Positions 43,081 through 54,221 of a stretch of DNA of 64,000 nucleotides are shown here, piece by piece. This stretch comes from Bacilli bacterium (GTDB lineage: Bacteria; Bacillota_I; Bacilli_A; RF39; UBA660). Location: assembly GCA_017484065.1 (NCBI GenBank), contig JAFUTX010000004.1, positions 1-64,000 on the forward strand, read 5' to 3'. Made by a program: the position numbers and the translations under genes. The notes under the pieces are model-generated. The model ran no database searches and was not told where the DNA came from. It worked only from the letters and a program-made list of their open reading frames with translations. Positions within the stretch are counted from its first letter, which is position 1. The number at the start of each line of letters is the position of its first letter.

Positions 43081-43102
43081 CAATATATAGCAAAAAAAGC
43101 TA

Positions 43103-43207
43103 TTGCTTTTAATCAATAACTTTTATATAATTACATTGATAGAACGTTTAGCTTTCAGCTAGGCGGCTATGTTTGGTTTAGCCATCTAACCTAGTTAGGT
43201 GGTTTTT
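43103..43207 (+). ncRNA. Candidate antitoxin RNA, locus 1
   Basis: Promoter TTGCTT (43103-43108), 17 bp, TATAAT (43126-43131), predicting a short RNA from about 43138. It begins with GAACGTTTAG (43142-43151), contains a TAGC/GCTA hairpin and TAGCCATCTAAC, and stops at CCATCTAAC-CTA-GTTAGGTGG-TTTTT (43182-43207). It overlaps the 3' end of the minus-strand peptide gene and can also pair with that mRNA's 5' leader. The promoter-terminator layout is seen; the RNA itself is inferred. Confidence 0.65.
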
Positions 43208-43275
43208 ATTATTAAGAGAATAATTACAGCTATCAATAAAATTTCTAGCAACTTATGATGAAGTTTATCACTCAT
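43195..43275 (-). CDS. 26-residue hydrophobic peptide, candidate type I toxin, locus 1
   Basis: MSDKLHHKLLEI then LLIAVIILLIIKTT, a short polar head and one membrane-spanning helix. The ribosome binding site GAGGAGGG lies just upstream of the ATG. A 5' leader of about 85 bases runs from a minus-strand promoter: TTGAAA (43395-43390), 16 bp, TATAAT (43373-43368). A paralogous gene with the same length and layout is at 52623-52703, with identical MSD start and HKLL motif. The pattern matches Fst/TxpA-like type I toxins. Toxicity is inferred. Confidence 0.7.
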   Translation of the reverse strand: MSDKLHHKLLEILLIAVIILLIIKTT

Positions 43276-43348
43276 AAGGATCCCTCCTCTCACCAAGTAA
43301 AGTTAAGTATAACCAAAACCACCTGAATAAGAGCTAGCCACCTAACAA

Positions 43349-43358
43349 CTAAACGTTC
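43349..43358. repeat. Inverted copy of GAACGTTTAG closing locus 1
   Basis: CTAAACGTTC at 43349-43358 mirrors 43142-43151, so both convergent RNAs begin with GAACGUUUAG. Confidence 0.6.
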
Positions 43359-43498
43359 TAAAGCTTTATTATAGTAACAAAAAATGAGATTTCAACCAAT
43401 TCGACAAAGGTTGTCAAAACTTATCAATATTTTTAATATATTTTATTTGCTTTAATCTTGAATATATATTAAAATACCCTATGTAAAGAAGTGGTTGA

Positions 43499-52469: not shown

Positions 52470-52529
52470 AAGTATCCTCTTTTCTCAAAATATATTATAT
52501 CATTGTTAACAATCTTTGTAAAAAAAATC

Positions 52530-52638
52530 TTGCAAGTTACTAACAACTTCTATATAATCAAATTGATAGAACGTTTAGCTTTCAGCTAAATGACTATCTA
52601 AGTAGATAATCATCTAACCTAGTTAGATGACTTTTTTT
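52530..52638 (+). ncRNA. Candidate antitoxin RNA, locus 2
   Basis: Promoter TTGCAA (52530-52535), 17 bp, TATAAT (52553-52558). The RNA would start near 52565 with GAACGTTTAG (52569-52578), hold an ACTATCT/AGATAAT hairpin, and end at TCATCTAAC-CTA-GTTAGATGA-CTTTTTTT (52610-52638). It overlaps the 3' end of the minus-strand toxin gene. Same layout as locus 1, but the loop and target segments differ, so the two antitoxins are probably cognate-specific. Confidence 0.65.
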
Positions 52639-52703
52639 AATATGAAGATAATTACACCAATTAGTATTATAATCAGTAACTTATGGAAACCATTGTCACT
52701 CAT
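52623..52703 (-). CDS. 26-residue hydrophobic peptide, candidate type I toxin, locus 2
   Basis: MSDNGFHKLLII then ILIGVIIFILKKVI, paralogous to 43195-43275: same length, MSD start, HKLL and a single membrane helix. AGGAGGGAGGAG precedes the ATG. Its minus-strand promoter is TTGAAA, 16 bp, TATAAT (52818-52791), giving a leader of about 80 bases that contains GTTAGATGGCT, complementary to CATCTAAC of the plus-strand RNA. Confidence 0.7.
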   Translation of the reverse strand: MSDNGFHKLLIIILIGVIIFILKKVI

Positions 52704-52771
52704 AAGGACTCCTCCCTCCTAGTAAAGACTGGATTAACCAAAACCCCACTAAAAGAGTAGCCATCTAACAA

Positions 52772-52781
52772 CTAAACGTTC
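52772..52781. repeat. Inverted copy of GAACGTTTAG closing locus 2
   Basis: CTAAACGTTC at 52772-52781 mirrors 52569-52578, as in locus 1. Confidence 0.6.
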
Positions 52782-52911
52782 TGGGCAACTATTATAGGGA
52801 TAATTTCTCGGATTTCAAGCGATTCGACAAATATTGTCAAAACTTATCAATTTTTTTATTGCGTAAGTTACAAGATAATGATAGAATTATTTTAGATAAA
52901 AATAGATTTGT

Positions 52912-53060: not shown

Positions 53061-54221
53061 ATGAGTCGCTTACATAAATTTGATTATCGAATAAAAGATA
53101 ATAGGAAAAGAAATACATTGTTAGTAAGTATATGTTTATTAATACTAATTGTCGTTGGAATAAAGCTATATAAAAGTTATGCTAAATTTGAAGTTGAGTC
53201 CGATAGTTATGAAATGATAAATGGAACAGTAGTAGAGCCAGTAAATGCCGTAGAGTATTTATCAAGTATAGTAGATGATAATGCAACTACTATGTTTATA
53301 GATGATACACCAGATGAAAATATTAGATATATGGGTAGTAATCCAAATAATTATGTTAAGTTTAATAATGAGCTATGGCGAATAATAGGTGTAATGAATA
53401 ATGTAGATGGTGGAGAAGTTTCAGGTGATAGAGCTAGCAGAGTTAAACTTATTAGGAATGAAAGTTTAGGGAGATTCCCATATTATGATAGTTGTGCTGA
53501 TGAAAATTGGACAAATAGTGGTGATGGTACTTATATTTGTAGTAAGAAAAGAACTGATAATAACTGGACAGGTAGTACGATAAATGAAATATTAACTACA
53601 TATTATAATAATGGAACATATGCACCTTATCATGGCTATATGTATATTAATAATAAGTGGGTAGATTATCCAACAAATGAAATAGATTATACAATTAGTG
53701 GCATTAGAGCAACAGCAAAAAAATTAATAGAATCAGCAACATATTATTTAGGAGGATATTTACTTAATAATAATTCATCAATAGACACTTTTTATTATCA
53801 AAATATGAATTGTAACACTTGGTATAATGCTGAACGAAAAAATAATGGAACAAATAATTCATTAACATGGACAGGAAATTTGGGCTTAATGTATATAAGC
53901 GATTATGGTTATGCAACAAACGGAGGTTCTAATGATAATAAGTTATTATGTTCAAATTACTCAATTTATTCTTGGAGTGAAAGTGAAAAAAGTTTCTGTG
54001 TAAATAATGACTGGATACATAGATATAGTTTTCCTGAATGGAGTATAGTTCCATTAGCAGATAGTAATACTCATGTTGCAAGTGTATCTAATGCTATTGC
54101 TAATAGTACATATCATGGTTTTGAAACTCGTCCTGTAGTTTACCTAAAATCCACAGTCAAAATAATCGCTGGACCTAATTCTGATGGTAGTGCAAGTAAA
54201 CCATATAAGTTAACCATTTAA
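53061..54221 (+). CDS. Surface protein with WRIIGV-type domain
   Basis: 386 residues. A cytoplasmic basic head, a membrane helix (about 20-35) and SYAKFEVESDSYE. From about 55 the conserved domain begins: VNAVEYLSS, NIRYMGSNPNNYVKFNNELW, RIIGVMNN and VKLIRNESLGRF, ending PVVYLKSTVKIIAG and SASKPYKLTI. This module is common in surface proteins of uncultured gut Bacillota; its job is unknown. Cys residues suggest disulfides outside the cell. The gene at 63323 has the same domain start, and 33141-33204 is a dead C-terminus. Confidence 0.72.
   Translation: MSRLHKFDYRIKDNRKRNTLLVSICLLILIVVGIKLYKSYAKFEVESDSYEMINGTVVEPVNAVEYLSSIVDDNATTMFIDDTPDENIRYMGSNPNNYVKFNNELWRIIGVMNNVDGGEVSGDRASRVKLIRNESLGRFPYYDSCADENWTNSGDGTYICSKKRTDNNWTGSTINEILTTYYNNGTYAPYHGYMYINNKWVDYPTNEIDYTISGIRATAKKLIESATYYLGGYLLNNNSSIDTFYYQNMNCNTWYNAERKNNGTNNSLTWTGNLGLMYISDYGYATNGGSNDNKLLCSNYSIYSWSESEKSFCVNNDWIHRYSFPEWSIVPLADSNTHVASVSNAIANSTYHGFETRPVVYLKSTVKIIAGPNSDGSASKPYKLTI

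Follow-up and report, generated by a model that had tools for sequence, protein, structure and literature searches.

Several described type I toxin-antitoxin (TA) systems bear on the locus presented here. In hok/Sok and AapA/IsoA, the toxin mRNA is silenced by an interaction between its 5' and 3' ends together with hairpins that mask the Shine-Dalgarno sequence, and the antisense RNA lies against the 5' region. Several copies per chromosome, each with locus-specific pairing, are reported for AapA3/IsoA3 (PMC6733600). In the Bacillus subtilis systems TxpA/RatA, BsrG/SR4 and BsrE/SR5 the toxin is a small one-helix peptide; for TxpA/RatA the antitoxin ends inside the 3' end of the toxin gene, and a duplex of this type is a likely substrate of RNase III (PMC6562991). 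The par/Fst systems (pAD1 and chromosomal Fst homologues) have convergent genes, a shared bidirectional terminator and leader repeats that pair with the antitoxin. In Clostridioides difficile, type I modules controlled by SigB tie TA expression to a host regulatory programme (PMC6563280). Here we analyze a stretch of 64,000 nucleotides (nt), the window, from the uncultured Bacilli bacterium assembly GCA_017484065.1 (contig JAFUTX010000004.1, positions 1 to 64,000), in which a gene for a 26-residue peptide near 43 kb faces a convergent antisense RNA gene. Judged from its sequence, the locus probably belongs to a chromosomal, multicopy family of type I TA systems activated by Spo0A.

The toxin mRNA of this locus is predicted to be silenced in the manner of hok/Sok and AapA/IsoA, and the gene pair likewise occurs in several chromosomal copies with locus-specific pairing. 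However, the peptide is unrelated, the lineage is Gram-positive, the promoter is of the Spo0A type, and the antisense RNA lies at the 3' end of the toxin mRNA. The one-helix peptide, the antitoxin that ends inside the toxin gene a toxin mRNA that seems to continue past the antitoxin promoter, and a predicted duplex that is likely to be cut by RNase III are reminiscent of TxpA/RatA. Compared with the B. subtilis systems, the peptides are mostly shorter (22–33 amino acids) and have no sequence match, the antitoxin is just ~65 nt, and the mRNAs show strong 5'-3' self-complementarity, with none seen on prophage contigs; the glucose, heat and stress regulation reported for those systems also differs. 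Convergent genes, a small membrane peptide and a leader-pairing repeat in the 43-kb copy are shared with par/Fst, but an Fst-family match, a shared bidirectional terminator and conserved leader pairing are not. Thus, of the two geometries named in a preliminary description of this DNA, the TxpA/RatA-like 3' overlap stands and the par/Fst analogy is weaker. The C. difficile modules are likewise tied to a host programme but have another regulator and other peptides; here, Spo0A-type sites are found at the toxin promoter only.

The peptide has no convincing family match in Pfam, NCBIfam, PHROG, PADLOC or PDB, defence libraries and solved structures included, which agrees with the preliminary view that it falls outside known families. 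Pfam and NCBIfam scans gave no match to a homologous hok/AapA toxin peptide or to an Fst-family peptide, and family and RNA searches found no homologous TxpA/RatA toxin or antitoxin. Rfam yielded nothing at gathering score, only weak, chance-level matches (E up to 5).

Organization of the Locus at 43 kb

The elements of the locus, in window coordinates, are as follows.

43198–43275, minus: toxin-like peptide open reading frame (ORF), 26 amino acids, MSDKLHHKLLEILLIAVIILLIIKTT; stop codon at 43195–43197
43252–43278, minus: start-codon hairpin CUUAUGAGUG...CAUCAUAAG, with CUUAUG/CAUAAG invariant in 5/5 copies
43278–43288, minus: Shine-Dalgarno region GAGGAGGGATC, predicted to pair with the leader CUCUUAUUCA
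43349–43358, minus: start block GAACGUUUAG of the toxin mRNA, with its complement in the 3' region of the same mRNA
43368–43395, minus: toxin promoter TTGAAA-16-TATAAT, from a promoter scan
43400–43427, minus: 10-bp-periodic array TTGATAAGTT TTGACAACCT TTGTCGAA, closed by a perfect Spo0A box (TTTGTCGAA) that lies 26 nt 5' of the -10
43093–43125, minus: putative terminator of the toxin mRNA, AAAAGUUAUUGAUUAAAAGCAAUAGCUUUUUUU, which overlaps the antitoxin -35; placed by eye, low in G+C and unflagged by the terminator scan
43103–43131, plus: antitoxin promoter TTGCTT (43103–43108)-17-TATAAT (43126–43131), kept in five copies
43138–43208, plus: predicted antitoxin RNA, ~65–70 nt, antisense over its full length to the toxin mRNA, at the last codons and the 3' untranslated region
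43142–43151, plus: start block GAACGUUUAG of the antitoxin RNA, which reads CUAAACGUUC on the toxin strand and there forms the 3' arm of the predicted 5'-3' interaction
43180–43204, plus: intrinsic terminator of the antitoxin RNA, lying over the last codons of the toxin ORF

The 26-codon gene for a one-helix peptide, the two convergent promoters and the antitoxin terminator over the 3' end of the peptide gene had all been proposed in the preliminary description, and each is borne out. The ORF (43275–43198) is preceded by the strong ribosome binding site GAGAGGAGGGAUCCUUAUG. Its promoter scores 11/12 and ranks first among 20 promoter-like sites of the region, and the terminator scan of the region returned two terminator-like sites where 0.1 were expected. 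The likely toxin mRNA terminator, the Spo0A-box array (43427–43400, minus) and the further copies in the genome had been overlooked. With its short hydrophobic peptide behind a ribosome binding site, and an antisense RNA gene that has its own promoter, terminator and complementarity to the toxin mRNA, the locus has at sequence level the general features of a type I system.

A block GAACGTTTAG lies 10–11 nt past each -10, at 43142–43151 (plus) and 43358–43349 (minus). Both RNAs had been thought to begin exactly with this block. Its presence behind both promoters holds, but because of this spacing the two RNAs probably start 1–4 nt ahead of it.

The leader also carries a motif, CAGGGGG-UUUUGG, at 43307–43320 (minus), ~20–40 nt 5' of the ribosome binding site. 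It occurs in 20 of 31 toxin leaders against 5.5% of shuffles, and may act as a standby site, a protein site or part of a metastable fold.

Copies of the Gene Pair in the Same Genome

The locus is more than a chance ORF, since close copies keep both promoters, the start blocks, the terminator and the ORF. Pattern and profile searches, from which all copy counts derive, revealed five close copies (subfamily A) in the 1.19-Mb genome, at C6:43198, C6:52626, C11:48267, C19:4348 and C22:14603 (contig:position). The peptides of the other four are 58–73% identical to that at 43 kb. Both promoters, both GAAC blocks, the antitoxin terminator, the ORF and the hairpin CUUAUG…CAUAAG are retained in all five. 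Differences among the close copies at the three codon positions (75/50/87) are ordered 3>1>2, and single changes are synonymous in 46 cases and non-synonymous in 38, although the pairs compared are non-independent. This order and the synonymous excess favor a translated, constrained peptide.

Five further copies were recognized only through the common upstream array. Subfamily B (C2, C11 with two copies, and C27) encodes the peptide MKKDINPVFIIVLFFIIIVLLILY, and both of its RNAs begin GAACGCAAG; subfamily C (C12) encodes MTEKSTYKLLIFLLLALIVLQCITIIYLTEKIA with the start block GAACGUUUAAG. The divergent copies thus have other peptides and other start blocks (GAACGCAAG; GAACGUUUAAG; GAAACAGCUGAG in the related genome G001), yet at each locus one block is common to both RNAs. 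Altogether the genome holds ~10 copies of the gene pair, and decayed copies are present on C1, C12 and C26.

The second copy in the window is itself a full module (52511–52850), with these elements.

52530–52558, plus: antitoxin promoter TTGCAA-17-TATAAT, from the sequence
52626–52703, minus: peptide ORF MSDNGFHKLLIIILIGVIIFILKKVI, from the paralogue search
52791–52850, minus: toxin promoter and Spo0A-box array, from the array pattern search

It lies upstream of a gene (53061–54221) for a large, N-terminally membrane-anchored protein that looks like a surface protein.

Complementarity between the Ends of the Toxin mRNA

Because both RNAs of a locus share the start block GAACGUUUAG, the 5' end of the toxin mRNA is complementary to its own 3' end. 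Over 46 loci, the mean 5'-3' pairing energy was -32.5 kcal/mol within a locus and -17.0 kcal/mol across loci (p=5.8e-27, a value that is indicative rather than exact because the loci share ancestry). The start block varies between loci, and the complementarity within each locus is retained.

Fold predictions are consistent with this pairing. All ten full-length toxin mRNAs examined are closed by a 5'-3' helix, and in most of them the Shine-Dalgarno site and the start codon fall inside hairpins. The fold z-score is -6.45 for the 43-kb toxin mRNA and averages -8.2 over 31 loci; antitoxin terminators were found at 21 of the 31, against 4.8% of shuffles. The 5'-3' interaction and the masked Shine-Dalgarno site of the hok/AapA architecture are thus present by prediction and by locus-specific complementarity, which suggests that the toxin mRNA adopts a similar inert long-range fold.

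The preliminary description had instead stressed pairing of UAGCCAUCUAAC with GUUAGGUGGCUA between the toxin leader and the antitoxin. At the 43-kb copy this pairing is good (12 pairs, including one G-U), and the relative L004 has an equivalent. Family-wide it is not significant: in two tests over 33–35 loci, cognate pairs were no better or barely better than non-cognate ones (p=0.23 and 0.05). The shared 5' block is better explained by a 5'-3' interaction within the mRNA than by contact of the leader with the antitoxin.

The Upstream Spo0A-Box Array

Upstream of the toxin -35, every close copy carries TTGATAAGTT TTGACAACNT TTGTCGAA, intact or degenerate, as 10-bp direct repeats ending in TTTGTCGAA. 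The array is present in all five subfamily-A copies, two of them degenerate. Exact matches to TTGNNANNNTTTGTCGAA number 13 in the genome; 11 are at toxin loci or their remnants and two at cellular genes. The sequence TGTCGAA is the core Spo0A box (PMC3485338). At sequence level this 0A box thus lies near the toxin promoter, as in a Spo0A regulon, and the genome has a Spo0A gene. The recognition helix of its product, TTSSRVERAIRHAIEV, is almost identical to that of B. subtilis Spo0A.

The product of the first cellular gene is a STAS protein with SpoIIAA as its best equivalog, and the gene for a SigF/SigG-like sigma factor comes immediately after it; both assignments score under the strict equivalog cut-offs.

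L199 (G000:C7), ~940–1935, minus: spoIIAA-like and SigF/G-like genes, spoIIAB absent, behind a four-unit Spo0A-type array

The spoIIA operon is a classical target of Spo0A. The loss of spoIIAB from this operon resembles a report on the order RF39 (PMC10868615). The second cellular gene, in the same genome, is a 41-residue ORF before a DivIVA-domain gene (L204). A Spo0A-type promoter, an ORF of 35–41 amino acids and a DivIVA-domain gene follow one another also at L128 and L132, so that this arrangement is conserved across genera.

As the toxin genes and the sporulation operon share the array, the toxin may be switched on at the start of spore formation. The position of the box directly upstream of the -35 suggests activation, rather than repression, of the toxin promoter by Spo0A at sporulation entry.

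Relatives in Other Genomes

The preliminary description had called for a search for homologous loci in related genomes, and such loci are present in at least 15 genomes of gut Bacilli. Peptide-only searches gave a single real cross-genome match, in G001, which led to a search by architecture. Most other cross-genome matches, whether to the single peptide or to the A2 profile, were discarded, as they lay in long open frames or unrelated genes. The array promoter pattern is present in 41 of the 386 genomes of the family, and in 19 of 150 genera, often 5–10 times per genome, with reversed-pattern controls near zero. Across 84,980 species there were 53 exact matches, nearly all in uncultured Bacilli or in gut metagenome-assembled genomes labelled Erysipelotrichales (from rabbit, rumen, mouse and others). 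Among the 89 array promoters with enough downstream sequence, 31 are followed by a small hydrophobic ORF with a 5'/3' inverted repeat, compared with 1 of 2219 control TATAAT sites; these 31 lie in at least 15 genomes. A profile of 22-residue peptides, built from array-derived loci of the relatives, found 17 loci, of which 15 have a 0A box within one mismatch. The exceptions, L219 and L220, indicate that the link to Spo0A, though strong, is not universal. L220 (G171:C21) is a related toxin locus that keeps the 5'/3' repeat and has no Spo0A box, so the TA family is broader than its link to Spo0A.

Some array promoters drive other genes. At L137, L138 and L139, in other genera, a Spo0A-type promoter drives an ORF-less RNA that has the same GGGTTTTGG motif as the toxin leaders and an inverted copy of it ~100 nt downstream; the RNA directly precedes a miaB-like gene, named by eye. 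At L129, L130, L131, L133 and L134, in certain genera, several copies of the Spo0A-type promoter stand before genes that resemble, again by eye, Rpn-type (PD-(D/E)XK) nucleases.

Proposed Mechanism and Alternatives

In the proposed mechanism, a sigma-A promoter responsive to phosphorylated Spo0A (Spo0A~P) would drive an mRNA of ~268 nt encoding a one-helix membrane peptide of 22–33 residues. The full-length mRNA would be silent at birth, its first ~25 nt paired with its own 3' end, and further silencing would come from hairpins that cover the Shine-Dalgarno site and the start codon. A constitutive antisense RNA of ~65 nt would cover the last codons of the ORF and the 3' untranslated region, and its duplex with the toxin mRNA would probably lead to inactivation or decay, as for TxpA/RatA (PMC6562991). 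When Spo0A~P rises at sporulation entry, toxin mRNA would exceed the antitoxin; 3' trimming or strand exchange could then free the 5' end, so that the peptide is made and the membrane perturbed.

Paralogy, the codon pattern, structure and the relatives all support the type I TA module first proposed for this locus, and the promoters, terminators, locus-specific 5'-3' complementarity and identity of the array with that of the sporulation operon fit the wider model. Several points weigh against it. Transcripts, silencing, antisense action, Spo0A activation and toxicity are all deduced from DNA sequence. The likely toxin mRNA terminator has few G-C pairs and was assigned by eye, and the leader:antitoxin contact is unconserved in the family. 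The position of the box, which fits activation, may also allow repression. L219 and L220 have no Spo0A box. Moreover, the link between array and toxin is partly ascertained, because many loci were found through the array. The peptide searches lower this bias (5/5 subfamily-A copies with the array, 15/17 profile loci with the box), although the profile behind the second count itself came from array-derived loci.

The peptide could also be harmless, for instance a regulator that works at the membrane during sporulation and whose gene is controlled by Spo0A and the antisense RNA. Purifying constraint on the peptide, a promoter common to a sporulation operon and the lack of a match to known toxin families would all suit such a role. 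Nevertheless, multiple diverged and decayed copies, layered predicted silencing and an antisense RNA of its own are what a toxin gene typically has and a harmless peptide seldom needs, which makes a non-lethal peptide rather unlikely. A system of the par/Fst type, in which direct repeats in the leader contact the antitoxin first and the two RNAs end at a shared convergent terminator, would account for the UAGCCAUCUAAC/GUUAGGUGGCUA pairing of the 43-kb copy and its equivalent in L004. We consider this very improbable, given the cognate pairing that hardly exceeds non-cognate pairing across the family, the absence of an Fst-family match, and a toxin mRNA that appears to pass the antitoxin promoter instead of sharing a terminator.

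Least probable of all is a DNA cassette, repetitive or mobile, bounded by inverted repeats, in which the ORF and the antisense promoter are incidental. Dispersed copies, inverted repeats near the ends and the decayed copies on C1, C12 and C26 are what such a cassette would leave. But the inverted blocks lie directly downstream of the two promoters and away from the element ends, their sequences vary by locus yet stay complementary, and the ORF shows a codon-position signal. A search of IMG/VR viral contigs for a prophage or viral origin returned no matches.

Implications

The proposed Spo0A-activated type I TA family is assembled from familiar kinds of parts. Three things appear to be new: the peptide families, the joint use of a 3'-overlapping antisense RNA and a 5'-3' mRNA lock, and the presence of a Spo0A-type promoter before the genes of a multicopy type I toxin. 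In the open-access literature, to which our search was confined, type I systems are linked to SigB or to stress, and none to Spo0A.

Type I TA systems are difficult to predict, and few of them have a known physiological trigger. In this family the DNA itself points to a likely trigger, because the Spo0A-type array of a sporulation sigma operon also stands before ~10 toxin genes in a genome of ~1.2 Mb. The ends of the toxin mRNAs vary between loci and are always complementary, which is in effect a covariation test, done by nature, of the long-distance-interaction model. The loci also extend such RNA locks to gut Bacilli with small genomes, a group without a cultured model. We put forward tentatively the larger idea that the master regulator of sporulation has taken control of a large, undescribed superfamily of type I toxins in uncultured gut Bacilli, with the result that ~10 privately RNA-locked membrane toxins fire at sporulation commitment. 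If this is true, the toxins might kill non-sporulating cells, arrest or lyse the mother cell, or bind the genome to the sporulation pathway.
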